Below, in pieces: positions 49,477-64,000 of a stretch of DNA of 64,000 bases (the first letter of the stretch is position 1; the number at the start of each line of letters is the position of its first letter). The notes under the pieces were generated by a model. It was given only the letters and a program-made list of their open reading frames with translations, had not been told where the DNA came from and ran no database searches. Origin of the DNA: Massilia atriviolacea (GTDB lineage: Bacteria; Pseudomonadota; Gammaproteobacteria; Burkholderiales; Burkholderiaceae_D); assembly GCF_003953935.1 (NCBI RefSeq), contig NZ_RXLQ01000002.1, forward strand, positions 124,001 through 188,000, written 5' to 3'. The position numbers and the translations under genes were made by a program.

Positions 49477-51054
49477 ATGACTTTACGCTGGCACAATACG
49501 CCCCTGGCGCGCACGGTACTCGTCTGCCTGGTTGTCGCCGGAACCTGTCTGCGGCTGGACTGGCTCGCCACGCAGTCCTTCCATGCGCGCGAGCGGGCCC
49601 GCGTGGCCGAACAGGTCGCTGCCCTGCGCTCGATGCTGGAACAGCGGCTGCACCTGCACCTGGCGCCGCTGGCGGCGGGCGAGGTGGTGCTGCAGCTGAA
49701 ACCGGACCTGACGCAAGCGCAGTTCCAGCGCCTGGGCCAGAGCCTGCTCAAGGACGCGCCCGCCGTGCGCACCTTGGCCTTGTCGCCGAATGCGGTTCTG
49801 CGGCATGTCTTTCCGCCCGATCAGGCCGGGCATCTGCACATGATGCCCACCCGGGCCGACGTGGAGCAAAGCGCGCGCGACGGCACCATGCGCCTGGACG
49901 GTCCGATGACGCTCGGCGATGGCGGCCTGGGCATGGTGGCGCGGCGTCCGGTCTACCTCGATCCGGACAGCCGCCTGCAATTCTGGGGTTTCGTCAGCGC
50001 CGTGATCGATTACGAACGCTTCATCGCGCTGGCCAGGCCGCTGCTGGCCGCGCCCGACATCGCCTTCGCGCTGCGCCACGTCAGTCCGGGCGGGGCGCCG
50101 GGGGCCGTGTTCCATGGCGCGCCGGCCAGCTTCGATGCGCTCACGGAAACGGCGCTGATCGGCACGCCCGCCGGCTACTGGCAGGTCGGCGCGCGCCCGC
50201 GCGGCGGCTGGGAGCAGCCGCGCCCGTATTCCTTGCCGCTGCGCCTGCTGATGCTGAGCGTGGTCGTCCTCACCGGCGCCGCCACCTGGCTGCTGCGCGC
50301 GCGCGGTCTGCGCAACAAGATGCTCCTGCGCAAGCTGGAGTCGGGCGAAGCGGCGCGGGTGCAGTGGGTGGCCGATACCTCGCACGAGCTGCGCACGCCG
50401 ATCACCATCCTGGCGACCCATCTCGATGCCATGCAGGACGGCATCATCGCGCCCACGCCGGCCAATCTGACGGTGCTGTCCGACACGGTGAAGGAAATGG
50501 AGCGGCTGGTATCGGACCTGCACGTGCTGGCGCGTGCCGACGCCGGCGCCCAGGCCCTGCAGTCCGAGCCGGTCGATCCGGCCGGGCTGTGCGAGGAAGT
50601 GGCGGCCGCCTTTGCGCCGCGCCTTGCCAGCCATCCCTTGCACTATCGGCTGATCGACGAGCTCGAGCCCGGCTGCCTGGTCCATGGCGACCGCCAGCGC
50701 CTGGGCCAGGTGCTGTCCAACCTGATCGGCAATTCGCTGCGCTACACCGATCCCGGCGGACAAGTGCAGGTGGTGCTGGCGCTTGCCGGCCCGCACATCG
50801 TGATCCGGGTCGAGGATTCCGCGCCCGGCGTGCCGGATGCGGCGCTGCCGCGCCTGTTCGAACGCTTTTACCGGGTCGACGAGTCGCGCAGCCGTGCCAG
50901 CGGCGGGTCCGGGCTGGGCCTGGCGATCTGCGAGGCCATCGTGGCCGGCCACGGCGGGCGCATGCAGGCCAGCCATTCGCCGCTGGGCGGCTTGCGCATC
51001 GATATCCTGCTGCCGGCCCAGGCGGCGCGCCCCCATCACGGAGATTGCCCATGA
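49477..51054 (+). CDS. Sensor histidine kinase, BaeS-like
   Basis: A 525-residue membrane kinase: TM1 (about residues 10-28), a periplasmic CHASE-like sensor (about 30-245), TM2 (about 248-270), a short linker, HisKA with 'WVADTSHELRTPITILATHL' and HATPase ('LSNLIGNSLRYTDPGGQV', 'GGSGLGLAICEAIVAGHGGR'). The kinase core resembles BaeS. The periplasmic part begins 'RLDWLATQSFHARERARVAE' and is of the type seen in kinases that sense small ligands. It overlaps its regulator by 4 bases. Confidence 0.9.
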   Translation: MTLRWHNTPLARTVLVCLVVAGTCLRLDWLATQSFHARERARVAEQVAALRSMLEQRLHLHLAPLAAGEVVLQLKPDLTQAQFQRLGQSLLKDAPAVRTLALSPNAVLRHVFPPDQAGHLHMMPTRADVEQSARDGTMRLDGPMTLGDGGLGMVARRPVYLDPDSRLQFWGFVSAVIDYERFIALARPLLAAPDIAFALRHVSPGGAPGAVFHGAPASFDALTETALIGTPAGYWQVGARPRGGWEQPRPYSLPLRLLMLSVVVLTGAATWLLRARGLRNKMLLRKLESGEAARVQWVADTSHELRTPITILATHLDAMQDGIIAPTPANLTVLSDTVKEMERLVSDLHVLARADAGAQALQSEPVDPAGLCEEVAAAFAPRLASHPLHYRLIDELEPGCLVHGDRQRLGQVLSNLIGNSLRYTDPGGQVQVVLALAGPHIVIRVEDSAPGVPDAALPRLFERFYRVDESRSRASGGSGLGLAICEAIVAGHGGRMQASHSPLGGLRIDILLPAQAARPHHGDCP

Positions 51055-51740
51055 CATCGCCCCTCGTTTTGCTGGTCGAGGATGAACCGCGCATTGCCGA
51101 GATTCAGCTTGCTTACTTGCAGCAGGCCGGCATGCGCACCCACCACCTGCTGCGCGGCGACGAGGTCGTCGCGTGGGTACGCGCCAAGCTGCCCGACCTG
51201 GTCTTGCTCGACCTGATGCTGCCCGGGCTGGATGGCACCGCCGTGTGCAGCCAGCTGCGCACCTTCACCGACGTGCCGGTAATCATGGTCACCGCGCGGG
51301 TGGAAGAAATCGACCGCCTGCTGGGCTTCGATGTCGGCGCCGACGATTACTTGTGCAAGCCGTTCAGCCCGCGCGAACTGGTGGCGCGCGCCCAGGTCTG
51401 CCTGCGCCGGCGCGGCAAGGCGGCGGCCGGGCCGCGCACGCCGACCAGCGCGCTGTCGATCGACGAGGAGCGCCAGTGCGCCACCTGGAACGGGGCGCGG
51501 CTCGAGTTGACGGCGCAGCAATATCGCCTGCTGAGCGTGATGGCGCGCCAGCCCGGACGCATCTTTTCGCGGGCGCAATTGCTGGAGCTTGCTTTCGAGG
51601 CCGGCAGCGAACGCTTCGACCGCGCCATCGACAGCCAGATCAAGAACCTGCGCAAAAAACTCTCCCAGCAGGTGGCCGACCAGGAATTGATTCACTCGGT
51701 GTACGGCGTCGGCTACCGTTTCGAATGCCAGCCGGCGTGA
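51051..51740 (+). CDS. OmpR-family response regulator, BaeR-like
   Basis: A 229-residue regulator: receiver with 'VLLVEDEPRIAEIQLAYLQQ', phosphoacceptor Asp in 'LVLLDLMLPGLDG', Lys in 'YLCKPFSP', and a winged-helix DNA-binding domain ('LTAQQYRLLSVMARQPGRIF', 'VYGVGYRFECQPA'). It is the partner of the kinase encoded upstream. The next gene in the same direction is the RTX-like giant protein, 89 bases on, so this pair may control it. Confidence 0.92.
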   Translation: MTSPLVLLVEDEPRIAEIQLAYLQQAGMRTHHLLRGDEVVAWVRAKLPDLVLLDLMLPGLDGTAVCSQLRTFTDVPVIMVTARVEEIDRLLGFDVGADDYLCKPFSPRELVARAQVCLRRRGKAAAGPRTPTSALSIDEERQCATWNGARLELTAQQYRLLSVMARQPGRIFSRAQLLELAFEAGSERFDRAIDSQIKNLRKKLSQQVADQELIHSVYGVGYRFECQPA

Positions 51741-51829
51741 TCGTTCCACCCTGAACGCCATAATTGCGCCACATTTGCTCGTCAATATGCACGCTCGGCA
51801 GATTGCCAGGCATGCATCGAGGAGAGAAA

Positions 51830-54800
51830 ATGGGTTTCACGAAATGGGTCAAGAAGACGGTCAAGAAGGTCGGCAAGTCGTTTAACGATGTCGTCAACGA
51901 CACGGTCAAGGATATCGGCGGCGGTATCGACGAGATCGGCAAGAGCTTCGACGACATGGGCAACGCGGCGCGCGACATCGCCGAAGACATCGCCGAACTG
52001 GGCTACACCAAGAAGAATTTCGGCAACGGCAACGACAACTTCACCTCCAGTTCGTTGGGCGGCAACTTTTTGAATGGGGGCGGCGGCAACGATACCCTGC
52101 GCGTGACGGCCGGCGCCTACAACGTGCTCAAGGGCGAAGACGGCGACGATACGCTCAGCGTGCAGGTCGGCGGCTACAACAAGCTCGACGGCGGCAACGG
52201 CAACGACAGGCTGTCGGTCAGCGCGGGCGCCGACAATATCCTGATCGGCGGCGAAGGCGACGATCATCTGTCCATCGGCGCCGGCGCGAGCGCCGAGATC
52301 GAGGGCGGCGGCGGCAACGACCGCATCGAGGTGGCGGCCGGCGGCGTGGTCAAGGTCAACGACTGGCACGGCCACAACACGATTCATTACAACGCCTTGT
52401 CCGGCTCGGTCAACAGCGGCGGCGGCAACGATACCGTGACCGGCAACGGCGCGAAGAACAGCATCAACACCAACGACGGCGACGACAAGGTCGACATGAC
52501 CGGCGCCAGCAATAACGTCAATGTCGGCAACGGCAACAATACCGTCAACCTCACCGGCGGCAGCAATGTGGTCCATGCCGGCAATGGCAGCGACCGGATC
52601 TCGGTGGGTGGCGGGCGCAACGTGGTCAATGCCGGCGATGGCGCGAATGTGATCAAGGCCGACGGCATCGCCAACAAAATTACGGCCGGCAACGGCGCCG
52701 ACAAGGTCAGCGTCAGCGCCGTGTCGAACGAGATCAGCACCGGCCAGGGCAACGACGAAGTCCTTGCCAGCAGCGCCAGCAATATCATCGATACCGGCGA
52801 CGGCAACGACACGGTCAAGGTCGATGGCGCATCGAATATCGTTCGCACCGGTAACAACGACGACAGCGTCGACGCGGCCGGCGGTTCCAACGTGCTGGAA
52901 CTGGGCAACGGCAACAACAGCGCCAACGCGGCCGGCGTATCGAACGTCATCAAGGCCGGCGACGGCAACGACACCGTGGTGGCCATGGGCGGCATCAATA
53001 CCGTACTGGCCGGCCATGGCGACAACAGCGTGACCGTGGGCGGCGGCGCCAACATCGTTACGACTGGCAACGGCAGCGACAAGATCAAGGCCTATGGCGG
53101 CAGCAACACGCTCACCATCGGCAACGGCAGCGACAAGCTGGTGGCATTGGGCGGCGTCAACGTGGTGATCGCCAGCGACGGCGGCGACAGCATCGTCGCG
53201 GGCGGTGGCGGCAATGCCATCGGCAGTGCGGGCGGCAACAACAGCATCCTGGTCGGCGGCTTGCTGAACGTCGTCGTCAGCGGCGGCGGCAGCAACCAGA
53301 TCGGCGCACTCGGCAATACCAACGCGCTGGTCGCCAACGGCGCATCGAACCTGGTGGCGGCCGTGGGCAACACCAACGTCGCGCTGGCCAACGGCGGCAA
53401 GAACACCGTGCTGGCGGCCGGCGCGGGCAACCTGGTGGCCACGACCGTCGGCGGCAACACGGTGGCGGCGGTCGGCGGCGCCAACGTGATCCTGACCGAA
53501 GTAGGCGGCATGCTGGACGCGGCCAGCGGCGGCCTCGGCAAGGTGCTGGCCGGCGCGGTGCCGGACAAGACCATCGCCACGGCGATCAACAACGCCACCG
53601 GCAAGCTGACCGGCGCCATCCAGAGCGGCAGCGGCAAGGATGTGGTGATCGCGGTCGGCGGCACCAATGTGATCTACACCGGCGCGCAGGACGACGTGGT
53701 GGCTGCCATCGGCGGCAATAACGTGCTGCTGGCCAACGGCGGCAATAATGTCAGCACGGCCATCGGTTCGAACAACCTGCTCATCAATAGCGCCGGCAAC
53801 AACGTCGTCACGACCCTGGGCAGCGCCAACGTGGTGCTGACCGGCGCGGGCGAGGGCATCACCGACCTGGCGAAGAAACTGGACAAGGCGACCGCCGGCA
53901 GCGCCACCAGCGCCATCTCCAAATTCCTCGGCAACACCCTGGCCAAGGGGAGCGGCAACGATATCGTCACCGCCATCGGCGCGGCCAACGTGGTCTACAC
54001 CGGCACCGGGAACGATGTCGTCACCACGCTGGGTTCGACCAATGTGGTGTGGGCCGGCGCGGGCAACGACGTGGTGACCGCGGCCGGTTCCAACAATATC
54101 GTCTGGGCCGATGGCGGGGTGGATGTGGTCACCGCTGCCGGCAACAACAACCTGGTCGTGACCGGCGACTACGCCGAAGTGGCGGCCACCGCCATCGGGC
54201 TGGTCGATTCCGTGGCGGCCGGGGTGGCGGCGGTCGACCTGGTCGGCAAGGCCGGCCTGGGCGGCGCGGCGACCAGCCAGGGCGGCACCGAAGCGGTGAC
54301 CGTCATGGGCAAGAACAATGTGGTGGTCGGCGGCAGCAACGCCACCGTCATCACCGCGCTGGGCAGCAATAATCTGCTGGTGAGCGGCGCCGGGAACGAT
54401 GTCATCAGCGCGGCAGGCAGCAAGACCGGGATTGTGGCCGGCGCCGGCAACGATGTGGTGACCGCGCTCGGCTCGTATAACGCGGTGGTGGCGGGCGAGG
54501 GCAACAACGTCGTCACCGCCGTGGGCAAGGGCAACCTGCTCAGCGGCGGCAGCGGCAACGACGTGCTGACCGCGATCGCGGTCGGCTCCGTCGGCACCAG
54601 CAAGTCGAACCTGAACGTGGTGCTGGGCGGCGACGGCAACAATGTCATGACCGTGATCGGCAAGGACAATATCGCGGTCAGCGGCGGCGGCAAGGATGTG
54701 CTGGTCATGGCGTCCTACGGCTCGCAGGAAAAAACCACCGAAAGCGGCAAGGAAGGCGAAGACACCACGACCACCAGCACCACCAAGTTCGATACCCAGG

Positions 54801-56455
54801 TCAATGTGGCGTGGACCGGCGGCGGCGACGATACGGCCTTGCTGTACGGCAGCCACAATGTGCTGGTGGCCGATGGCGGCAACGATACCGTGATCGTGGT
54901 CAATGCCGGCAGCAAGCTCGATTACAAGAGCGAAACCACCAACGGCGCCAATGAAGTGGTGTCGTCGACCAAGGTCAGCGCCGATACGGGCTTGAACTTC
55001 GTGCACACCGGCAGCGGCAACGATACCGTGATCCTGGCCGGCACCACCACGGTCGGCATGGGCGGCGAGGGCAACGACGTGATCGTCACGGCGGCGCAAA
55101 ACAATATCGCCATCGGTGGCGCGGGCAACGACGTCATCATCGGCCTGTCCGAAATGACGGTGTTTAACGCGGTCGAAAGCCTGGTCGAGAACGACTACGA
55201 GTCGGCCGGCGACTGGATCGGCGCCGCCATGAACTACAACTTTGCCTCGTCGCAGGTCAAGGCCCTGACCAGCGGCAGTCTGAGCAAACTCAATCTGGTC
55301 GGTAATGTGTTGCTGGGAGGCGAGGGCAACGATACCGTGTTCGCCACCAACGCCGGTACCTATATCAGCGGCGGCAATGGCGACGATGTGATGATGGGCA
55401 TGGGCTGGGGCGTCATTACCGAGTTGCTGGGCAAGAATTCGGCCAAGCTGGGCGGCGCGGCGATCGGCGGCTTTGCCGATGTCAGCAAGTATGTGGGCGA
55501 CACCATGCTCAAGGAACTGTCGACTGGCTGGGACCAGATGGGCGCCAGCATCAAGGCCAAGCTGGCGGCGGCCACGGCCAGCGCCGGTGCGCTGGGCGCC
55601 AGCATCGACGGCGTCAGCGGCAAGGCGGTCGACGCGGTGGCGGGCGTGACGGGCGTGGAACTGGGCGACTTCAGCGTTGCCGGCGGCATCAAGGGCGCCA
55701 TGAACGGGGTGTCGGGCGGCGTCAACACGGCCGTGGCCGGCATCGGCAAGGGCTTCAGCTACGCGGCCGACGCCGATGTGGCGGGCGCGCTGGCGGACAG
55801 CGCCAAGTTCCTCGGCAGCAAGGTCGCCGCAGGCAGCGACGCGACCTTCGACGGCCTGGAATGGCTGACCGACAAGCTGGGCCTGGATATGAACTTCGGC
55901 AACTTCAACGGCGCCGAAGGCCTGGTCGGCGGCTTCCTGGCTTACCTGATCGGCTACAAGTACGCCGGCGACAACGACCTGCACGGCGGCGCCGGCAACG
56001 ATACCTTGTACAGCGGCATGGGCAACGATGACTTGCGCGGCGGCAGCGGTACGGACACCTATGTCGTTTCGATGGGCGACGGCAAGGACACGATCTATGA
56101 AAGCGCTGGCGGCAACGACATCCTCAAGTTCGCGGCCAACCGGATTTTCTCGGGCGTGACGATGGACGCCGCCGGCGTGAAGGCGAATATCAGCGGCAAG
56201 GACCTGGTGATCAACTATGTCAAGGACAAGGTCTTGTTCGCCAAGGTCACGATCGCCGACTACGCCAGCGTCAACATGAAAGAGCTGCAGTTGATCGACC
56301 AATCCGGCGCGCTGGTGTCTACTATCAGCATGAATAGCCTGATCGCGGGGGCCGCCGACAGCGACCCGTACGCGATGACCTCGGTGTGGACGGTGAACCA
56401 TCTCGACGCCTTTGCCGAGCTCGTTCTGGTCGGTACGCAGCAGCAGGCGGCATAA
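51830..56455 (+). CDS. Giant RTX-like beta-solenoid protein with 18-residue Asn-ladder repeats
   Basis: A 1541-residue Gly/Asn/Ala/Val-rich protein with no signal peptide. N-terminus: amphipathic helices ('GFTKWVKKTVKKVGKSFNDV'). Residues about 70-225 have RTX-like turns ('GGGGNDTLRV'). Residues 228-551 are exactly 18 units of 18 residues, each opening with Asn and carrying GxGxD on one turn and GGxN on the other. More units follow to about 1110, with Ala-rich helical inserts. The C-terminus has true RTX repeats ('GGAGNDTLYSGMGNDDLRGG') and an HCBP-related end, as in type I secretion substrates. No T1SS genes are nearby. GGAGAG precedes the ATG; an earlier start lacks a ribosome site. A terminator follows. 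Confidence 0.85.
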   Translation: MGFTKWVKKTVKKVGKSFNDVVNDTVKDIGGGIDEIGKSFDDMGNAARDIAEDIAELGYTKKNFGNGNDNFTSSSLGGNFLNGGGGNDTLRVTAGAYNVLKGEDGDDTLSVQVGGYNKLDGGNGNDRLSVSAGADNILIGGEGDDHLSIGAGASAEIEGGGGNDRIEVAAGGVVKVNDWHGHNTIHYNALSGSVNSGGGNDTVTGNGAKNSINTNDGDDKVDMTGASNNVNVGNGNNTVNLTGGSNVVHAGNGSDRISVGGGRNVVNAGDGANVIKADGIANKITAGNGADKVSVSAVSNEISTGQGNDEVLASSASNIIDTGDGNDTVKVDGASNIVRTGNNDDSVDAAGGSNVLELGNGNNSANAAGVSNVIKAGDGNDTVVAMGGINTVLAGHGDNSVTVGGGANIVTTGNGSDKIKAYGGSNTLTIGNGSDKLVALGGVNVVIASDGGDSIVAGGGGNAIGSAGGNNSILVGGLLNVVVSGGGSNQIGALGNTNALVANGASNLVAAVGNTNVALANGGKNTVLAAGAGNLVATTVGGNTVAAVGGANVILTEVGGMLDAASGGLGKVLAGAVPDKTIATAINNATGKLTGAIQSGSGKDVVIAVGGTNVIYTGAQDDVVAAIGGNNVLLANGGNNVSTAIGSNNLLINSAGNNVVTTLGSANVVLTGAGEGITDLAKKLDKATAGSATSAISKFLGNTLAKGSGNDIVTAIGAANVVYTGTGNDVVTTLGSTNVVWAGAGNDVVTAAGSNNIVWADGGVDVVTAAGNNNLVVTGDYAEVAATAIGLVDSVAAGVAAVDLVGKAGLGGAATSQGGTEAVTVMGKNNVVVGGSNATVITALGSNNLLVSGAGNDVISAAGSKTGIVAGAGNDVVTALGSYNAVVAGEGNNVVTAVGKGNLLSGGSGNDVLTAIAVGSVGTSKSNLNVVLGGDGNNVMTVIGKDNIAVSGGGKDVLVMASYGSQEKTTESGKEGEDTTTTSTTKFDTQVNVAWTGGGDDTALLYGSHNVLVADGGNDTVIVVNAGSKLDYKSETTNGANEVVSSTKVSADTGLNFVHTGSGNDTVILAGTTTVGMGGEGNDVIVTAAQNNIAIGGAGNDVIIGLSEMTVFNAVESLVENDYESAGDWIGAAMNYNFASSQVKALTSGSLSKLNLVGNVLLGGEGNDTVFATNAGTYISGGNGDDVMMGMGWGVITELLGKNSAKLGGAAIGGFADVSKYVGDTMLKELSTGWDQMGASIKAKLAAATASAGALGASIDGVSGKAVDAVAGVTGVELGDFSVAGGIKGAMNGVSGGVNTAVAGIGKGFSYAADADVAGALADSAKFLGSKVAAGSDATFDGLEWLTDKLGLDMNFGNFNGAEGLVGGFLAYLIGYKYAGDNDLHGGAGNDTLYSGMGNDDLRGGSGTDTYVVSMGDGKDTIYESAGGNDILKFAANRIFSGVTMDAAGVKANISGKDLVINYVKDKVLFAKVTIADYASVNMKELQLIDQSGALVSTISMNSLIAGAADSDPYAMTSVWTVNHLDAFAELVLVGTQQQAA
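52511..53482 (+). repeat. 18 x 54-bp tandem repeat block in the solenoid gene
   Basis: Exactly 972 bases = 18 x 54, coding residues 228-551 with no insertion or deletion. Units are diverged at DNA level but keep the protein pattern N-h-h-x-x-G-x-G-x-(N/D)-x-h-x-x-x-G-G-x. The following region holds further 18-residue units interrupted by long inserts. Confidence 0.85.
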
Positions 56456-56476
56456 GCTGGACTGAGCAAAACAGGG

Positions 56477-56512
56477 GGCGCAGTCTTCGACGGAGACTGC
56501 GCCTTTGTTGTT
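56477..56512 (+). terminator. Intrinsic terminator after the solenoid gene
   Basis: Perfect 10-bp stem GGCGCAGTCT / AGACTGCGCC (56477-56486 and 56494-56503) with a 7-base loop, followed by TTTGTTGTT. It separates the giant gene from the STM4015-type operon. Confidence 0.85.
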
Positions 56513-56627
56513 GGAGGGGCCAGGCAGCGGTCTAGGCAAGGCAGAAAGATTTCCATGTCGTGGTAAAATTTCAAGATTGCCAGGGCGATTCGCGCCAGCG
56601 GCCTTTTCACTTTTCCGGACGCATACC

Positions 56628-57548
56628 ATGCCGATTTCAGAAGATACTGTCACCTTTTTCAACAGGACGGTTACCGAGTACGACGCCGACGAGCCGGTCG
56701 CGTTGTCCGACGATGTCGTCTATCGCTTGTCGCGCGAGTACGACGGCGAGCAAACGATGCCGGAAATGATGGAAGAGTTTTTCGGCCGCATCGACAAATC
56801 CAAGCTCGACGCGCTCATCATCGGAATGTGGAGCGATGAATGCGACGATAGTTCGGCCGAGGCTGTCGAGACCTTGCTCAAGCATGCAGGCGAGTTGCAG
56901 AACCTGCGCGCGCTGTTCATCGGCGACATGACGTATGAAGAATGCGAAATTTCGTGGATCGTCCAGAGCGACCTGACGCCGCTGCTGAAAGCCTTCCCGA
57001 ACCTGGAAGAGTTCAAGGTGCGCGGCGCCAACGGCCTGGAATTCCAGCCGTTCACCCACGCCAAGCTGAAAAAATTCACCATCGAAAGCGGCGGCCTGCC
57101 ATCCTCCGTGGCGCAGGCGGTGGCGGCCTCGAGCATGCCGGCGCTGACCCACCTGGAACTGTGGCTGGGCTCGGAAGACTATGGCTTCGACGGCGATCTG
57201 GCGCTGTACCAGGACCTGGTGGCCAAGCTGCGCACGCCGACCCTGGCCTACCTGGGCTTGCGCGATTCGGAGATTGCCGACGAGCTGGCGGTATGGCTGG
57301 CCGCTTACGACCTGGTCGGCTGCCTGAACACGCTGGACCTGTCGCTCGGCACCCTCGGCGATGTCGGCGCCGAAGCCCTGTTCAACAGCCAGTACGTGCC
57401 CAAGCTCAATACCCTGGACCTGGAGCACCACTACATTTCCGAAGAATGGCAGGACAAGCTCAAGACGCTGAAGATCACGGTCGACCTGTCCGATCCACAA
57501 GAGCTGGAAGATGAAGACGACGAGCGCTACGTCGCCGTCGGCGAGTAA
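56628..57548 (+). CDS. STM4015-family LRR-like protein
   Basis: A 306-residue acidic cytoplasmic protein. The second half has leucine-rich-repeat-like units ('LRALFIGDMTYEECE', 'FPNLEEFKVRGANGLEF', 'TPTLAYLGLRDSEIADELAV', 'LNTLDLSLGTLGDVGAEALF', 'LNTLDLEHHYISEEW') and a Glu/Asp-rich tail ('DPQELEDEDDERYVAVGE'). This plan and the next four genes match the STM4015-STM4011 set named after Salmonella loci, all of unknown function. The ATG at 56628 is the family-like start ('MPISEDTVTFFNRTV'). It is first in the operon and could be a substrate-binding scaffold or the protein that is modified. Confidence 0.82.
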   Translation: MPISEDTVTFFNRTVTEYDADEPVALSDDVVYRLSREYDGEQTMPEMMEEFFGRIDKSKLDALIIGMWSDECDDSSAEAVETLLKHAGELQNLRALFIGDMTYEECEISWIVQSDLTPLLKAFPNLEEFKVRGANGLEFQPFTHAKLKKFTIESGGLPSSVAQAVAASSMPALTHLELWLGSEDYGFDGDLALYQDLVAKLRTPTLAYLGLRDSEIADELAVWLAAYDLVGCLNTLDLSLGTLGDVGAEALFNSQYVPKLNTLDLEHHYISEEWQDKLKTLKITVDLSDPQELEDEDDERYVAVGE

Positions 57549-57557
57549 GATGCCGCG

Positions 57558-58700
57558 ATGGATGGCGCCGGGCTGCCGCGCATGCTAGACGGCAGCGCGC
57601 ACCTGCCGCTGGTGTTGCTGGGCGTGCGTGGCGGCAAGCGGGAAACACTGCTGCAGGCGGCACGCGCCTCGCTCGGCCAGCCTGCGGCCGTGGTGGTCGA
57701 CTGGGCCGAGTGGCTGGAGCAGCCTGCGCTGCTGACGGCCAGCCTGGCCCGTCCTTGCATGTTCAAGATCGACTCGCCGGGCGACGACGCGCGCGTGCAC
57801 GCCGTGCTGATGCGTGAAGGCTGCGCGTCGCTGGGCCGCAGCCTGCCGCGTGCGCCCGATCATGGCGAAATCGCGGTCTCCGACGACTGGTTCGCCGGCT
57901 TGACGCTGGCGCTGCAAGGCGTTGCGGCGGAACTGTCGGCGCTGCCCCATGTCCTATCATTCAACGCACCTGACGAATTGCTGCTGATGACAGACAAGCT
58001 GGCTTGCCAGCGGCATCTGGCTGCGCACGGCATTCCGATTCCCCGCCTGCTCGGTCCCATCGGCGGCTACGCGCAGCTGCGCGCGGTGATGGACGAGCAC
58101 GACCTGAAGCAGGTGTTTCTCAAAACCCGCTACGGATCGAGCGCGTCCGGCGTGGTGGCGTACCGCCGCAACGGCCGTGGGGCCGAGCAGGCCACCAGTT
58201 CCGCCAGCCTGGTGCCGGGGGCCGATGGCGCGCGCCTGTACAACGTCAAGCGCTTGCGCAGCTACGACACGCAGGCCGACATCGTGCAACTGATCGACCT
58301 GCTGGCGCGCCAGCAGATCTATGCCGAAGCGTGGATTCCCAAGCCGCGCCATGGCAATGGGCATTTCGACCTGCGCGTGCTCACCCTGGGCGGCCGGCCG
58401 GCGCACCGGGTGGCCCGGGTCGGCGCGCGCATGATGACCAATCTGCACCTCGACAACCAGCGCGCCGATGTGGCCAGCCTGCTTGGCGACAAAGACCATG
58501 CCGCGCTGGAACAGGCAGCCTGCGCGGCGGCTGCGGCTTTTCCGCAGAGTCACGTCATCGGCCTGGATATGGTGGTGCGCAAGGGACGCGCCCATGTGCT
58601 GGAAGCGAATGCCTTCGGCGACCTGCTGCCCAGGCTGCTGTGGCAGGGCCGCGATACCTATGCGGCGCAGTTGCAAAGTTTTGCTTCCCATGAAGCCTGA
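57558..58700 (+). CDS. STM4014-family ATP-grasp protein
   Basis: A 380-residue protein with an ATP-grasp core: N-terminal alpha/beta domain (about 15-130), 'DKLACQRHLAAHGIPIPRLL' (ATP-grasp entry), 'VFLKTRYGSSASGVVAYRRN' (nucleotide-binding Lys and loop), 'IYAEAWIPKP', and the metal-binding end 'IGLDMVVRKGRAHVLEANAF'. ATP-grasp enzymes join a carboxylate to an amine, thiol or similar group. Its partner substrates are unknown. It starts 9 bases after the LRR-like gene and overlaps the next by 11 bases. Confidence 0.85.
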   Translation: MDGAGLPRMLDGSAHLPLVLLGVRGGKRETLLQAARASLGQPAAVVVDWAEWLEQPALLTASLARPCMFKIDSPGDDARVHAVLMREGCASLGRSLPRAPDHGEIAVSDDWFAGLTLALQGVAAELSALPHVLSFNAPDELLLMTDKLACQRHLAAHGIPIPRLLGPIGGYAQLRAVMDEHDLKQVFLKTRYGSSASGVVAYRRNGRGAEQATSSASLVPGADGARLYNVKRLRSYDTQADIVQLIDLLARQQIYAEAWIPKPRHGNGHFDLRVLTLGGRPAHRVARVGARMMTNLHLDNQRADVASLLGDKDHAALEQAACAAAAAFPQSHVIGLDMVVRKGRAHVLEANAFGDLLPRLLWQGRDTYAAQLQSFASHEA

Positions 58701-59523
58701 TCCACGCTCGATTCCCGACATGAACAAGGTGGTCGGCAGTCATGACATCGTGTTCATCACGCTCGACACCCTGCGCCATGACGTCGCCCAGCGCCTGTAC
58801 GAGGCGGGCGAACTGCCGGTGCTGGGGCCGTACCTGCCGCCGGGCGGCTGGGAGCGCCGGCACAGCCCGGCCAGCTTTACCTATGCGGCCCATCACGCGT
58901 TTTTTGCCGGCTTCCTGCCTACGCCCGAGCATCCGGGGCGGCATCCGCGCCTGTTCGCGACCGCGTTCCGGGGCAGCGAGACGACCTCGGCCCATACGCA
59001 CGAGTTTGCCGAGGAAAGCGTGCCCGCCGGCCTGGCGCGCGCCGGTTACCGCACGATCTGCATCGGCGGGGTGGGCTTTTTCAACAAGGAAACGGCGCTC
59101 GGCTGCGTCCTGCCGGGTATGTTCCAGGAAAGCCACTGGACGCGTTCGATGGGCGTGGACGGCCGCCGCTCGACCGAACGCCAGGTGGCGCTGGCGATCG
59201 CGCGCCTGGCCGCGCTCGGCAGGCAGCGCGTATTCCTGTTCATCAATGTGGCGGCCATCCATTCGCCCAACCGCGGCTACCTGCCGGGCTGCCGCAGCGA
59301 CACGATCGACAGCCATGCCGCCGCGCTGCGCTATGTGGACGGGGCGCTGGCGCCGCTGTTCGCCGCCTGCGCGGCGCGCGCGCCGACCTTTGCCATCGTC
59401 TGCTCCGATCACGGCAGCGCGTATGGCGAAGACGGCTTTCGCGGCCATCGCATCGCCCATGACACCGTGTGGAACGTTCCATACGCCCATTTCTTTATCG
59501 ACTTTAACGGAACGACGCCATGA
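58690..59523 (+). CDS. STM4013-family hydrolase, alkaline phosphatase/sulfatase fold
   Basis: A 277-residue protein of the alkaline phosphatase superfamily. Metal-site motifs are 'VFITLDTLRHD' (Asp26, Asp31) and 'CSDHGSAYGEDGFRGHR' (Asp240, His241). The candidate nucleophile is Thr64 in 'FTYAAHHAFFAGFLP', at the place of the formylglycine Cys/Ser of sulfatases; a Thr there suggests phospho-transfer or hydrolysis, not sulfatase activity. An alternative ATG at 58720 ('MNKVVGSHD') is equally possible. It is coupled to its neighbours by overlaps. Confidence 0.85.
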   Translation: MKPDPRSIPDMNKVVGSHDIVFITLDTLRHDVAQRLYEAGELPVLGPYLPPGGWERRHSPASFTYAAHHAFFAGFLPTPEHPGRHPRLFATAFRGSETTSAHTHEFAEESVPAGLARAGYRTICIGGVGFFNKETALGCVLPGMFQESHWTRSMGVDGRRSTERQVALAIARLAALGRQRVFLFINVAAIHSPNRGYLPGCRSDTIDSHAAALRYVDGALAPLFAACAARAPTFAIVCSDHGSAYGEDGFRGHRIAHDTVWNVPYAHFFIDFNGTTP

Positions 59524-60899
59524 ACCATCCCGCCACTCCCGGCACGCTCGCCCAGCGCATGCGTCACACGCCGTACCAGGCGTATTCCTATTCCTATCCG
59601 CACAAGGCGGCATACCGCGCGCTGGCCCAGCCGGCCTCGCTCGAACAGCTGTGGGCGGCGCAGGACCGCTCGGCCCTGTTCGCCTATATCCATATTCCGT
59701 TTTGCGAAATGCGCTGCGGCTTTTGCAATCTGTTCGCGATGGCGCGCCCGCATCCCGAGATGGTGGAACGTTATGTGGCGCAGGTGGTCCAACAGATGCG
59801 TGTCCTCGACAAGGTGCTCGGCGCGCGCAGGTTTGCCCGTTTCGCCCTGGGCGGCGGCACGCCCACGTTTTTGTCGGCGGCGCAGCTGCAAACGCTGCTC
59901 GAAGGCGCGCGCGATATCCTGGGCATCGATTTGCAGGCCACGCCGGCCGGCATCGAAGCCTCGCCCGAGACCGTCACGCCCGAGCGCATGGCGGTGTGCC
60001 GCAGCATGGGCATCGACCGCGTCAGCCTGGGCATCCAGAGCTTTGCGGCGGGCGAGATGCGCTCGCTGGCGCGGCCGCAGCAGAACGAGGTGGTGACCCG
60101 GGCGATCGGCCATATCCGCGCTGCGGGTTTTCCGACGCTCAATCTGGACTTGATTTACGGCATCGGCGGGCAGACGGTGGAGAGCTTGCTGGCGTCGATC
60201 GACAGCGCCCTCGCGTTCAGTCCGGAAGAGCTGTATCTGTATCCGCTGTACGTGCGCCAGCATACGGGGCTGGGCAAGATTGCCAACAGAAAGGGGGTTG
60301 CCTCGTTCGATCCGATCGTGCTGAACCAGGAAGGCGACAGCCGCATGCAGCTGTACGAGGCGGCGCGCGACCATTTGCGCGCGCGCGGCTACGTGCAGGT
60401 GTCGATGCGCATGTTCCGCGCACCGCACGCCCCGAGCGAGAGCGGTCCGTCCTACTGCTGCCAGAACGACGGCATGGTGGGCCTGGGCACCGGTGCGCGC
60501 TCGTATACGCGCGATCTGCATTATTCGACCGATTACGCGGTCGAGCGGGTCGACACGATCGGCATCATCGACAATTACCTGGCGCTCGACGCCGATAGCT
60601 TCACCCATGCGCAGCACGGCTTTGCGCTGGACTTTGACGAACAGCGGCGGCGCTATGTGATCCAGTCGCTGCTGACCGATCCCGGCCTCGATCCGGCGGC
60701 GTACACGCAGCGTTTCGGCGGCGATTGCATGCAGGACTTGCCGCAACTGCGGGAATTGGGCGAACTGGGCCTGCTGGAAGAGGGCGCTGCGATGCTGCGC
60801 CTGAACGATCGCGGCTACGCGTATGCCGACACCATCGGTCCCTGGCTGGCTTCGGAAAACGTGCGCCTGCTGATGGCGGACGGCGGGACAACATGCTGA
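59520..60899 (+). CDS. STM4012-family radical SAM protein (HemN-like)
   Basis: A 459-residue radical SAM enzyme with Cys62-x3-Cys66-x2-Cys69 ('IPFCEMRCGFCNLF'), the Gly-Gly-Gly-Thr-Pro SAM motif ('FALGGGTPTFL') and a HemN-like C-terminal domain ('YCCQNDGMVGLGTGARSY'). The layout resembles coproporphyrinogen oxidase/HemW, but it lies in an operon that has no haem genes, so a different substrate is likely. It overlaps genes on both sides. The N-terminal extension of about 50 residues includes 'HTPYQAYSYSYPHKAAYRAL'. Confidence 0.88.
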   Translation: MNHPATPGTLAQRMRHTPYQAYSYSYPHKAAYRALAQPASLEQLWAAQDRSALFAYIHIPFCEMRCGFCNLFAMARPHPEMVERYVAQVVQQMRVLDKVLGARRFARFALGGGTPTFLSAAQLQTLLEGARDILGIDLQATPAGIEASPETVTPERMAVCRSMGIDRVSLGIQSFAAGEMRSLARPQQNEVVTRAIGHIRAAGFPTLNLDLIYGIGGQTVESLLASIDSALAFSPEELYLYPLYVRQHTGLGKIANRKGVASFDPIVLNQEGDSRMQLYEAARDHLRARGYVQVSMRMFRAPHAPSESGPSYCCQNDGMVGLGTGARSYTRDLHYSTDYAVERVDTIGIIDNYLALDADSFTHAQHGFALDFDEQRRRYVIQSLLTDPGLDPAAYTQRFGGDCMQDLPQLRELGELGLLEEGAAMLRLNDRGYAYADTIGPWLASENVRLLMADGGTTC

Positions 60900-61828
60900 G
60901 CATGCTGCCGGTTGCCGCACTGGCATCGGCACAGCCGGCGGACGGGGCGCGGGCGCAGCCGGTACTGTCGCTGCTGTACCGGGGCACGCTGTCGGGATGC
61001 AATTACGATTGTGTGTATTGCCCGTTCGCCAAGCGGCGCGACAGCCGGGCCACGCTGGCGCGCGACGCGGCCGAGGTGGCGCGCTTCGTCGCCTGGGTGG
61101 GCGCGCAGGAGCGCCCGCTCAGCGTGCTGTTCACGCCGTGGGGGGAAGGCATGATCCGGCGCCATTACCAGGAGGCGATCACGGCCCTGTCCGGCATGGC
61201 GCATGTGCGCCAGGTGGCGATCCAGACCAATCTGTCCGGACCGCTGGCGTGGCTGGAGCAGGCCGACAGGCGCAAGGTGGGGCTGTGGTGCACTTACCAT
61301 CCGAGCCAGGTGCGGCTGGCGCGGTTTGTCGAGCGTTGCGTGCGCCTGGAGCGCATGGGCGTGCATTTTTCGGTGGGCATTGTGGCGCTGCGCGAACATT
61401 TCGACGCGATCCGCGCCTTGCGCGCCGCATTGCCGCAGCAGCATTATCTCTGGCTCAATGCCTACGGCCGGCGTCCGCCCGGGTATTATCGTCCCGACGA
61501 CCTGGCCTGGCTCGACGCCATGGACCCATGGTTCAGCTACAGCCGCAATCCCGAGATGTCACGCGGGAAAGCCTGCCGCGCCGGCTCGGAAGCGCTGTCG
61601 GTCGATGGCGACGGCGACGTGCAGCGCTGCCATTTCCTGCCGCAGCGGCTTGGCAACCTGTATACGGATCGCCTGGAAGACATGCTGGCCGAGAAGCCGT
61701 GCACCCGCCTGCGCAAATGCGATTGCTATATCGGTTACGCGCACCGGCAGGAACTGCCGTTTTATGACGATTTCGGTGCCGGCGTACTGGCGCGCATTCC
61801 CTTGCGGCCGGTACCCGCGCAGGGATGA
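60893..61828 (+). CDS. STM4011-family radical SAM protein
   Basis: A 311-residue radical SAM enzyme with Cys36-x3-Cys40-x2-Cys43 ('SGCNYDCVYCPFAKR'), a partial TIM barrel and a Cys-rich C-terminus: 'GKACRAGSEALSVDGDGDVQ', 'RCHFLPQRLGNLYTD' and 'CTRLRKCDCYIGYAHRQ', about five Cys that could bind an extra Fe-S cluster as in SPASM/twitch domains. Such domains are common in peptide-modifying enzymes. The ATG at 60893 overlaps the previous stop by 7 bases. The substrate is unknown. Confidence 0.85.
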   Translation: MLSMLPVAALASAQPADGARAQPVLSLLYRGTLSGCNYDCVYCPFAKRRDSRATLARDAAEVARFVAWVGAQERPLSVLFTPWGEGMIRRHYQEAITALSGMAHVRQVAIQTNLSGPLAWLEQADRRKVGLWCTYHPSQVRLARFVERCVRLERMGVHFSVGIVALREHFDAIRALRAALPQQHYLWLNAYGRRPPGYYRPDDLAWLDAMDPWFSYSRNPEMSRGKACRAGSEALSVDGDGDVQRCHFLPQRLGNLYTDRLEDMLAEKPCTRLRKCDCYIGYAHRQELPFYDDFGAGVLARIPLRPVPAQG

Positions 61829-62361
61829 CGATGATGCTGCCTCAAATCACGAATCCGCACCGCGTTCTGATCCAGGCCGGTATGTGGGTACACCGTAACT
61901 CGGACTGTATCTCGTTCGAGTTGTTGCTGACGCCGGACCAGGCCACGATCCGGTACTTCAGGGGGGAGGGGCCGTGGTGGGAAGACTTTCTGGTCGGCGA
62001 GCAGCGTGTGCCGGCCAAGGTCGCTACCGATTTCATCGCCGGCGTCAATGCGGTGATCGGACGCGAGGATCGTTTTGTTAACTGGGGTCGGAGCGGCACG
62101 CAATACCATGCCAGGATCAGCGAAGGCCCGGCGGGCACTGCACACCTGCTGGAGATCGACTCGGACGACCTCACTCGCGAGGTGCTCAGAGAAGTGGCGT
62201 CCGATCCGGCGCAGCGCCCCGAGGTTGCCGAGTATGCGCGCTCAGCCCTGGCGCGCGATCCGTTCAACCGTGCCTACGCGGTCTTCAGGCTGGCGCAGGC
62301 TTTCGCGCACGCGCTCGGTTACGACGTGCCTCCACCGGTGGCCCCGAGATACGGGGACTGA
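61825..62361 (+). CDS. Unknown protein at the end of the STM4015-4011 operon
   Basis: A 178-residue soluble protein with no recognised family. It begins 'MTMMLPQITNPHRVLIQAGM' and contains 'WWEDFLVGEQRVPAKVATDF' and 'ARDPFNRAYAVFRLAQAFAH'. A 4-base ATGA overlap with the STM4011-like gene shows it is translated with the operon. It is absent from the five-gene set I know from Salmonella, so it may be a lineage-specific partner. It converges on the PepSY gene with 6 bases between stops. Confidence 0.7.
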   Translation: MTMMLPQITNPHRVLIQAGMWVHRNSDCISFELLLTPDQATIRYFRGEGPWWEDFLVGEQRVPAKVATDFIAGVNAVIGREDRFVNWGRSGTQYHARISEGPAGTAHLLEIDSDDLTREVLREVASDPAQRPEVAEYARSALARDPFNRAYAVFRLAQAFAHALGYDVPPPVAPRYGD

Positions 62362-62367
62362 CCAGGC

Positions 62368-63615
62368 CTACTCCAGCACGGGCATACTGCCCTGGCGCAC
62401 CGGCTGCGACAGCGGGCCGGGCGCGGCACGCGCCGCGACCATCCGCGCACGCCGTTTGCGCACCCAGATCAGCACCCCGGTCACGCTCAGCATCGCCACC
62501 ACCACGCCCAGGAAGGACAGCACGATCCGGCCCGGCAAGCCGGCGATGCGGCCCGAATGCAGGGGGAACTGGAGCTGCAGGAAAATATCGCCCGCACTGC
62601 CGGTGCCCGGTACGCGGTCGGCCGCGAATGTGCCGTTCCGGCCGTCGAAATACAGCCAGGAATTGCCCAGCCCGACGTCGCCGTGGTCGTTGCCCGGCTG
62701 GAAAAATCCGACCCCGTACAGGCCGTATGCGGACGCGTAGAACACGCCGCCGACCGGCTCCGTCCAGCCGCGCTTGCTTCCTTCGGCACGCGCCAGCGCA
62801 ATCACCTGCTCGCGGCTGACCAGGGCCGGAATCGGTTTTTCCGGCGGATTCATGGTGCGGCTGGCAAACGCATCGGTGCTCAGGGTGGACACGGTCGAGA
62901 GCAGCGGACGCACCACGCGGTCGGTCAGGTTCATCGACACCGAGGTGATCGCCAGCACCAGCAGCAAGAGCCAGACCCAGACGCCGCCGGAGCGGTGCAG
63001 GTCGAAGTTGAGCTTGTGGCCGCCGGCCTTCCAGCGGAAGGCGAAGGATTTGCGCCAGCTGCGGAAGTTGGGAAACGACAAATACAGGGCGATGAAGCAA
63101 TCGACCACCCAGACAATGGCGATGATGCCCATGAACCAGATGCCCAGCTCGACGCCGCCCACGTCCGGAATATGCATCGTGTAATGCAGCTTGTACAGGA
63201 AGGGCAGCAGGTTTTCGCGCGACAGCGAAATCTGGCCCCACTCGCGCCTGGCCTGGATGGTGCCGGTGACCGGATCGACGCCGATCTGATTAAAGCCCAG
63301 CGCGTACGGCTTGCCGGTGGCCGGATCGATCGTGCCTTCGACCGACATCATCGACGTATGGCCCGGCTCGACCTCGGTCATCACATAGGTGACGCGCACG
63401 CGCGGATCGGCCGCCTCGATGGCGCGCGCCAGCGCGGGGCCGGGGATCTGGCGCCGGGCCGTCTCGCCGCTGTGGGCGTGGAACAGGTCCGGATTGAGCG
63501 CCGCGTCGAGCTCGTGATCGAAGGAGATCAGGGCGCCCGTTGCACCGGAGATGAACAGAAAGATTGCAACGCCGAGTCCGAACCAGCGGTGGAGAACGAC
63601 CAGTGCATGGCGCAT
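62368..63615 (-). CDS. PepSY-domain membrane protein (iron-regulated type)
   Basis: A 415-residue inner-membrane protein: TM1 (about residues 10-30), a periplasmic PepSY region ('LSFNRWFGLGVAIFLFISGA'-type start, 'RVTYVMTEVEPGHTSMMSVE'), further TM helices near 150-175, 200-225 and 355-380, and a cytoplasmic Arg-rich end. It matches the PiuB/FhuE-associated PepSY family, thought to help in ferric-siderophore reduction or release. It starts one base after the stop of the receptor gene, so they are co-transcribed. Confidence 0.85.
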   Translation of the reverse strand: MRHALVVLHRWFGLGVAIFLFISGATGALISFDHELDAALNPDLFHAHSGETARRQIPGPALARAIEAADPRVRVTYVMTEVEPGHTSMMSVEGTIDPATGKPYALGFNQIGVDPVTGTIQARREWGQISLSRENLLPFLYKLHYTMHIPDVGGVELGIWFMGIIAIVWVVDCFIALYLSFPNFRSWRKSFAFRWKAGGHKLNFDLHRSGGVWVWLLLLVLAITSVSMNLTDRVVRPLLSTVSTLSTDAFASRTMNPPEKPIPALVSREQVIALARAEGSKRGWTEPVGGVFYASAYGLYGVGFFQPGNDHGDVGLGNSWLYFDGRNGTFAADRVPGTGSAGDIFLQLQFPLHSGRIAGLPGRIVLSFLGVVVAMLSVTGVLIWVRKRRARMVAARAAPGPLSQPVRQGSMPVLE

Positions 63616-63616
63616 A

Positions 63617-64000
63617 TCAATACGTCCAGTTGAGGGTGGCGCTGGCGCTGCGTGGCGCCGCGTAGTAGGCCTGGCTCCAGTACAGCGAGGTCAGGTATTT
63701 TTTATCCGTGACGTTGTTCAGGTTCACGGCCAGGGTCATATTGCGGTTGATGTCGTAACGCGCCAACAGGCCCAGCGTGGCGTAGCTGTCCTGGCGCGTG
63801 ACGATGCCCGGTTCCTGCTCGCGCTCGATGTCGCTCTGCCAATTCAGCTTGGCGCCGATCTTGAGTTGCGGCACCATCGGCAGGCGGTAGGTGGTGGACA
63901 TGCGCAGCAGGCGGCGCGGCACGTAGGTCCGGGTCTTCCTGCCTTCGCCGTCTTCCACGTTGAGGTGGGTGTAGCCGACGCTGGCCAGCCAGCCTTTGGC
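63617..64000 (-). CDS. TonB-dependent siderophore receptor, C-terminal end (partial)
   Basis: The last 127 residues of a TonB-dependent outer-membrane receptor; the gene enters from the right edge and the rest is outside. It shows alternating transmembrane beta strands ('MSTTYRLPMVPQLKIGAKLN', 'LLARYDINRNMTLAVNLNNV') and the family end 'DKKYLTSLYWSQAYYAAPRS' with a final aromatic ('LNWTY'). It is of the FhuE/FpvA ferric-siderophore type and pairs with the PepSY gene. Confidence 0.88.
   Translation of the reverse strand, partial: AKGWLASVGYTHLNVEDGEGRKTRTYVPRRLLRMSTTYRLPMVPQLKIGAKLNWQSDIEREQEPGIVTRQDSYATLGLLARYDINRNMTLAVNLNNVTDKKYLTSLYWSQAYYAAPRSASATLNWTY

Follow-up and report, generated by a model that had tools for sequence, protein, structure and literature searches.

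What do five adjoining genes do whose families are known just by Salmonella locus tags? This question is raised by a stretch of 64,000 nucleotides (nt) from Massilia atriviolacea (contig NZ_RXLQ01000002.1, positions 124,001 to 188,000; the window in what follows). Positions 56628-61828 of its forward strand hold a tight operon with STM4015, STM4014, STM4013, STM4012 and STM4011 in this order. Each of the five proteins scored above the curated NCBIfam cut-off of its own STM4011-STM4015 model, which bears out the operon of this type proposed by an earlier reading of the letters alone (the sequence-only reading). No two neighbouring genes are more than some 20 nt apart; the gap between STM4015 and STM4014 is 9 nt, and frame overlaps of a few bases begin at the STM4013-STM4012 junction and continue downstream. 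The same reading had stated that no pathway was described for these families, and our search agreed: no published role was found for them in the full-text literature, which largely leaves out subscription journals and preprints. The published mentions found for the locus tags are single list entries (STM4015 in a positive-selection table and STM4013.S in a sigma-54 binding-site table). In this study, we found that STM4015, a protein resembling leucine-rich repeat (LRR) proteins, carries a conserved tail with an invariant terminal Glu, and the five-gene set appears to attach something to, and to remodel, the last residue of this repeat protein.

The five genes form a unit in many bacteria. Genome contigs were scanned with an STM4011 alignment, which gave at least 590 stretches, 438 of them encoding relatives. 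The best 80 of these 438 were used as loci; they are rich in actinomycetes, Massilia and Janthinobacterium, and their genes were called with profiles from annotated seeds at a limit of 150 bits. All five genes occurred together in 73 of the 80 loci, clustered in one unit as in the window. Singly, STM4012 was present in 80 loci, STM4013 in 78, STM4014 in 75 and STM4015 in 74, one of the last (Prescottella defluvii, L066) being counted from a frame-split piece only. Among the 73 full loci, 51 have the gene order of the window, 19 have the same order with 2-6 copies of STM4015, and 3 have another. Seven loci are incomplete; L051, L068, L073 and L089 are truncated by contig ends, and the locus profile scan showed no STM4014 in L071. 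The hosts include Massilia, Janthinobacterium, Lysobacter, Methylobacterium, Streptomyces, Actinomadura and Nocardia, and furthermore Paenibacillus, planctomycetes, a Chloroflexota bin and an Akkermansia bin. Annotated records with the operon come from Deinococcus, Salmonella and Bacteroides. Thus, the gene-neighbourhood survey that the sequence-only reading had advised returned a broad conserved co-occurrence in several phyla, not confined to a few genomes.

In the family of the window genome (7.36 Mb), STM4013 exceeded its cut-off in 30 of 245 genomes. We sampled 29 of these 30 (the window's own was left out) together with 29 of the 215 negatives. STM4014 and STM4015 exceeded their cut-offs in 29 of the 29 genomes with STM4013 and in none of the 29 without it; two of the negatives (G413 and G600) gave LRR-type matches and two others (G403 and G404) ATP-grasp matches, all below the cut-offs. 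Because the co-occurrence with STM4013 was all-or-none in these 58 genomes, the association of the five genes is not due to chance. In a phylum-wide draw, STM4015 exceeded its cut-off in one of 398 genomes, the one being the window's own, and the system is therefore widespread but patchy.

Some loci deserve a separate remark. In Prescottella defluvii and in Thermobifida cellulosilytica (L088), STM4015 is split across frames, in the former together with parts of STM4013 and STM4012, and the genes of both loci look broken or mis-sequenced. Bacteroides finegoldii (L031) was considered as a natural three-gene minimal system and rejected: its locus still carries the N-terminal remains of STM4013 and the C-terminal remains of STM4012, so the gene loss there is likely a deletion.

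Which of the five proteins could be the object of the others? STM4015 (56628-57548, +; 335 bits for NF038076 against a cut-off of 275) has 306 amino acids (aa) and a net charge of -39 (K+R-D-E). Its PDB homologue is 2RA8 of Bacteroides fragilis (E 1.7e-44), whose record names the protein only as uncharacterized and which we take to have the LRR fold; a literature search for 2RA8/Q64V53 gave, among the matches listed, only ones about WGR domains. The LRR-like label of the sequence-only reading stood as far as the repeat pattern in the alignments goes, but the Pfam matches lie below cut-off (LRR_14, 25.5 bits against 40). The body contains the conserved blocks GD, SWI and YG. It is followed by a variable acidic linker of low information in the alignment (about residues 286-299; 57483-57524, +) and by the tail RYVAVGE (57525-57545, +), whose last residue, Glu306, is the proposed attachment site.

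To count the tails, 126 STM4015 matches were taken from the loci, of which 121 reach the end of the profile. All 121 finish in Glu, no match above 180 bits lacks it, and Glu306 is the only position of the window protein that is identical across all 121 in the full alignment. The five dropped matches all score below 180 bits and end before profile position 290: two frame-split pieces of P. defluvii (one ends VAVGE, the other is inner), the protein of a Gemmata bin (L069, ending GDYE), and two N-terminal pieces of the frame-split T. cellulosilytica copies, whose C-terminal pieces were counted. Three of the 121 are C-terminal pieces (one from L068 and two from L088). These sequences share ancestry and hence are not 121 independent events; after clustering at 50% identity, 21 of 21 representatives finish in Glu. 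In addition, STM4015 finishes in Glu in 29 of 29 genomes of the same family, 8 of which are identical to a counted sequence over the last 60 residues.

The tail consensus is R-[YF]-[VI]-A-V-[SG]-E, with 4.32 bits at -1, 3.68 at -3 and 3.15 at -6, and 0.78-2.21 bits at -8 to -19. In all 121 tails, position -2 is occupied by a small residue (G, S, A, T or P) and position -3 by a hydrophobic one (V, I, L, M, A or Y), and an aromatic residue stands within -6 to -8; none has a Lys in the last 8 residues or a Cys in the last 12. Residues 301-306 average 3.23 bits, compared with 3.10 for the best 15-residue block of STM4015 and 1.96 for linker residues 286-300. 2RA8 is aligned up to residue 354 of its 362-residue chain and ends YPMITE there; the eight residues beyond are probably a tag. 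One might suppose that the tail is the mere conserved end of a fold and that its association with the enzymes is incidental. A conserved end is indeed not peculiar to STM4015, as that of STM4012 is moderately conserved too (up to 3.17 bits at -7). However, only STM4015 has an invariant last residue: the last residues of STM4014, STM4013, STM4012 and STM4011 carry 1.53, 1.27, 2.13 and 0.96 bits. Furthermore, the gapped, variable linker parts the tail from the LRR, and the joint presence is all-or-none in the 58 genomes. This explanation is already disfavoured, and we consider it highly improbable.

STM4014 (57558-58700, +; NF038074, 335 against 175) is the candidate for acting on this Glu. It is an intact ATP-grasp protein with 23 residues invariant in 52 aligned sequences, including K139, K181, D263, R265, R279, D329, E341 and N343 (numbered from the second ATG, 57582); the invariant lysines and the D..E.N metal site are presumably those expected of an ATP-grasp enzyme. 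The top PDB matches of its profile are RimK (5ZCT and 4IWX, E 4.5e-6 and 5.8e-6) and LysX (E 9.8e-6). The RimK match consists of two stretches, the nucleotide-binding part and a D-x-R ... R ... NLH-G ... G-V-D ... E-V-N-A part, and the best LysX stretch is the D-x-R ... E-V-N-A one. RimK extends the C-terminal Glu of ribosomal protein S6. The AlphaFold2 model of STM4014 has a mean predicted local distance difference test score (pLDDT) of 95.1, and its nearest fold is that of ArgX in the LysW complex 3VPB (E 2.8e-11, template modeling (TM) score 0.60), followed by LysX (3VPD). LysX and ArgX attach an amine to the Glu at the C terminus of LysW, a protein with the tail EDWGE (PMC10433800). Two independent findings therefore point to one reaction: a Glu that never varies at the end of STM4015, and a ligase of a class that uses terminal Glu.

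Based on sequences, models and analogy, we think it rather probable that STM4014 activates the tail Glu and that the radical SAM (S-adenosylmethionine) enzymes work on a tethered group. The tail, [YF]-x-x-V-(G/S/A/T)-Glu, would be flexible and would serve both as substrate and as the common handle. STM4014 would phosphorylate a carboxylate of the C-terminal Glu of STM4015 and couple the activated Glu to an amine (an amino acid or an amine-bearing small molecule). STM4011, STM4012 and STM4013 would then act on the tethered group, with the LRR body and the tail providing recognition. At the end, either the finished group would be released, STM4015 being a carrier like LysW or the pearlins, or the modified LRR protein itself would be the product. 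The order of these steps and all features of the appended group are what we infer. The sequence-only reading had suggested that the acidic LRR-like protein could be scaffold or target. Its invariant C-terminal Glu opposite a RimK/LysX-like ligase supports this, and the conserved tail behind a variable acidic linker makes the choice of target or carrier specific. A further step is more tentative, and we hold it somewhat doubtful: the LRR protein would replace LysW, the LysX-like ligase would load an amine on the Glu, and the radical SAM pair would build an unusual amino acid or cofactor. This would amount to an unrecognised class of protein-tethered biosynthesis in several phyla, sometimes with several LRR carriers per operon. 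Literature searches joining radical SAM with leucine-rich repeat plus ATP-grasp or SPASM found nothing, and one that combined radical SAM and ATP-grasp with amino-group carrier proteins led only to a paper on tRNA sulfur.

What could the remaining enzymes do? STM4012 (59520-60899, +; NF006067, 564 against 380 bits) is a HemN-like radical SAM enzyme; it matches HemN (1OLT, E 2.5e-59) and the methyltransferase NocN (9P2U, E 3.7e-37) in the PDB, and its CxxxCxxC motif (C62, C66 and C69) is invariant in 25 of 25 sequences. An assignment to HemN or HemW was rejected by the scores (141 and 146.9 bits against cut-offs of 324.95 and 205.4). STM4011 (60893-61828, +; NF038073, 369 against 200 bits) is a SPASM radical SAM enzyme: it passes the Pfam cut-offs (PF04055, 30.3 against 29.5; PF13186, 25.2 against 21.5), and the radical SAM triad C36/C40/C43 together with C228, C246, C270, C276 and C278 is invariant in 10 of 10 aligned sequences. 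It scored 17.1 against the cut-off of 27 of the NCBIfam extended SPASM domain model TIGR04085, and its sole PDB match at E 0.001 is SkfB (6EFN, E 4.1e-4).

SPASM enzymes mostly modify peptides, which would suit another reading: the tail is the core of a ribosomally synthesized and post-translationally modified peptide (RiPP), the radical SAM enzymes form a cross-link between the aromatic residue and the Glu, and a short modified peptide or a cofactor is released by cleavage, as for pyrroloquinoline quinone. The aromatic residue at -6 to -8 and the Glu at -1, each in 121 of 121, fit such a route. However, the aromatic position is not fixed (10 of the 121 tails are without Tyr or Phe at -6), no protease is among the six window genes, and a RiPP requires no RimK/LysX-like ligase of the STM4014 kind. 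Side-chain cross-linking as in graspetides would call for Lys/Thr/Ser partners to the several acidic residues of the core, and Lys is missing from the last 8 residues of all 121 tails. We consider the RiPP-like route quite unlikely and less likely than ligation to the tail Glu.

STM4013 (58720-59523, +, with an alternative in-frame ATG at 58690; NF038075, 393 against 250) is an alkaline-phosphatase-superfamily enzyme consisting of a single 267-aa domain. Its model (mean pLDDT 93.9) is nearest to the catalytic domains of the phosphoethanolamine transferases EptC, EptA and MCR-1; sulfatases and nucleotide pyrophosphatase/phosphodiesterase (NPP) stand lower, and the identities are 11-25% among the 50 matches listed. 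The motif D-[TS]-L-R is present in 14 of 14 aligned sequences, with Thr/Ser at the presumed nucleophile position; from this motif, we take STM4013 to be a phospho-ester enzyme and not a formylglycine sulfatase. In addition, STM4011 of Bacteroides carries a fused HAD-type hydrolase domain (L031:7965-9527 and L030:8910-9644), and a Cof-type HAD gene adjoins the operon in Salmonella, which suggests a phosphorylated intermediate in some lineages. On a Streptomyces albidoflavus plasmid (L032:5848-9297), an STM4013-family hydrolase stands in a different cluster, with a radical SAM protein (weak MoaA C-terminal match), a thymidylate-kinase-like, a hypothetical and a NUDIX hydrolase protein; this context hints at nucleotide-type substrates for the hydrolase family.

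STM4013, STM4012 and the HAD neighbours could also make an ordinary small-molecule pathway, in which the substrate of STM4014 is a free small molecule and the tail does no more than dock the LRR scaffold onto one of the pathway enzymes. Short linear motifs conserved at a C terminus are often used in this way. However, in our judgement docking rarely requires that a terminal Glu with its free carboxylate stay invariant from phylum to phylum, and the closest structural relative of STM4014 binds just such a tail. Docking is thus unlikely in our view and ranks, as less likely, below ligation to the tail Glu.

Does the product stay on the protein or leave it? Two to six STM4015 copies are present in 20 of the 80 scanned loci, and the window genome has only one. 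Copies from a single locus have bodies that are 44-74% identical on average and share one tail grammar; in 22 of 25 multi-copy loci, the tails resemble each other more closely than the bodies do. Furthermore, a search of a plasmid collection gave four STM4015 copies away from operons, and the tail was kept in all four. Streptomyces cadmiisoli has an extra copy 24 kb from the operon (RFVAVSE), two Embleya replicons have copies about 140 kb and more than 2 Mb from it (both RYTQVAE), and a Calothrix plasmid has one (RYCSVAE) with no operon gene within the 11 kb examined around it. The simplest reading is that one enzyme set serves several tailed STM4015 proteins.

The same copies would be expected if the modified LRR protein were the end product. 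The operon would then place one chemical group on the tail of each of several LRR proteins that differ in their binding surfaces, much as a dedicated post-translational modification would. Up to six copies per locus with divergent bodies and one tail grammar, as well as distant copies that keep the tail, speak for this, and no recurring peptidase or transporter stands beside the operon in nine annotated records (an S41 peptidase lies more than 4 kb upstream in Bacteroides, and unlike transporters lie near the operon in Salmonella, Paenibacillus, Bacteroides and one Streptomyces). However, much of the LRR body is highly conserved (the GD, SWI and YG blocks), which fits a surface for common enzymes more than diversified binding. 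We regard this explanation as possible, though on balance unlikely. It is compatible with the core of the tail-Glu mechanism and incompatible with a released small molecule.

Several observations weigh against the tail-Glu mechanism. For the ligase, the RimK and LysX profile matches to STM4014 contain no stretch that is significant by itself, a biotin carboxylase ranks next to LysX among the profile matches (E 1e-5), and the fold search places D-Ala ligase, PsnB, RimK and biotin carboxylase only a little behind ArgX and LysX (query TM score about 0.5-0.6). ATP-grasp folds are broadly alike, and the likeness of the STM4014 model to ArgX/LysX is support, not proof. In addition, STM4014 falls outside the RimK family (TIGR00768, rimK_fam), with 19.9 bits against a cut-off of 143.4. 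For the tail, 3 of the 25 multi-copy loci (L042, L088 and L112) have tails that resemble each other less than the bodies do, and the tail could be a docking signal. In the Gemmata bin (L069, 9848-11362), a divergent LRR-like protein in the place of STM4015, with an N-terminal part that by eye we take to be WGR-like, ends FLMQGDYE; the terminal Glu is kept and the remaining tail grammar is lost. For the later steps, the modelled fold of STM4013 predicts phospho- or sulfo-ester chemistry rather than amide hydrolysis, and NCBIfam and Pfam showed no peptidase among the six window genes to release a product. Finally, a Streptacidiphilus locus (L108, 7455-9942) has STM4012 and STM4011 alone, with no other operon gene in its 18.8-kb stretch.

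The surroundings of the operon are less constant. The sequence-only reading had counted a sixth gene as a member. This co-directional gene, orf6 (61825-62361, +; 178 aa), has no match in NCBIfam or Pfam, and its sole homologue in the 80 scanned loci is in Massilia frigida (L043). We rejected it as a part of the system; it is lineage-specific and outside the conserved set. In several phyla, a DUF6745 protein and an open reading frame (ORF) of about 100 aa are paired beside the operon, at 48 of 93 loci (L035-L041 and 41 more). The short ORF carries the motifs GEVTGHSH, HEEH and QREY; the DUF6745 proteins share a conserved C-terminal end (YxPxxxT or similar), and in Deinococcus the N-terminus is LRR-like by eye. 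The pair is a possible second module, but it was rejected as an obligatory part. DUF6745 gave no match in the window's genome, and none in the control genomes either, so its absence is not proven. The clustering of neighbours was noisy, since it relied on stop-to-stop ORFs and many of these genomes are GC-rich; a literature search on DUF6745/SEN3800-type names found nothing.

Directly upstream of the operon, the window encodes a giant RTX/calcium-binding repeat protein (51764-56455, +), and by eye a similar-looking repeat ORF precedes the operon in M. frigida (L043, 3-4271). A 1626-aa mirror ORF opposite the RTX gene is probably an artefact of the repeats. A PepSY-associated transmembrane protein (62371-63615, -) converges on the 3′ end of the operon, and M. 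frigida has a look-alike, again by eye, at the equivalent place. No Rfam element reached the gathering thresholds in 51000-64000. In 56300-62600, one sigma-70-like promoter match was found against 1.0 expected, and 12 terminator-like sites against 4.0 expected (standard deviation 2.0), on both strands and mostly intragenic. A role in anti-phage defence was rejected, as the only PADLOC match among the operon proteins was a weak one to STM4012 (26.2 bits).

The analysis joins five families known just by locus tags in a single mechanism that can be tested and that names its reaction site. If it is true, C-terminal-Glu carrier biosynthesis would reach beyond small zinc proteins to LRR proteins, with LRR carriers from Salmonella to Deinococcus, Streptomyces, Bacteroides and planctomycetes. 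It would also be coupled to radical SAM chemistry, usually a sign of an unusual product, and would assign a definite task to one group of bacterial LRR proteins. Bacteria may thus have an unrecognised way to build molecules on a protein handle.

How does the system compare with known ones? STM4012 shares a HemN core and a C-terminal domain with HemN and the class C radical SAM methyltransferases (NocN), but it lies below the HemN, HemW and ChuW/HutW cut-offs. STM4013 has its nearest folds and a Thr/Ser at the presumed nucleophile position in common with EptA/EptC/MCR-1 and NPP; unlike them, it is a single 267-aa domain, of low identity to them among the matches listed. RimK, the S6-glutamate ligase, is the best profile match of STM4014 and likewise acts on a protein C-terminal Glu; however, the family cut-off is missed, the operon has no S6, and the partners are radical SAM enzymes. 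Membership among the graspetides was rejected, since no tail has a Lys in the last 8 residues and Glu is the only invariant tail residue.

PEARL ligases are unrelated to ATP-grasp enzymes, and no Pfam or NCBIfam match to such a ligase was found among the six window proteins. PMC9303977 describes LysW-type and pearlin carriers as known routes to tethered products: in pearlins (TglA/TmoA), PEARL ligases use aminoacyl-tRNA to add an amino acid to the carrier C terminus, which is then modified, with a radical SAM enzyme among the tools. Unlike the STM4011-STM4015 set, pearlin systems have a dispensable carrier N-terminus and a protease. The LysW/ArgW and LysX/ArgX systems of Thermus and archaea resemble the present set in a carrier that ends in a small residue plus Glu, a terminal Glu that STM4015 shows in 121 of 121 sequences, and in the ligase fold nearest to STM4014. 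However, LysW is a 54-aa zinc protein with a C-terminal EDWGE motif (PMC10433800), whereas STM4015 is a 306-aa LRR-like protein without EDWGE at its tail and without a zinc-domain match in NCBIfam or Pfam, and the operon has two radical SAM enzymes and a phosphatase-fold enzyme in place of any LysZ/Y/J/K-type gene. Judged by the features that define each group, this is an STM4011-STM4015 system; it belongs neither to the amino-group carriers nor to the RimK, graspetide or pearlin systems, although by analogy it may work like an amino-group carrier system.

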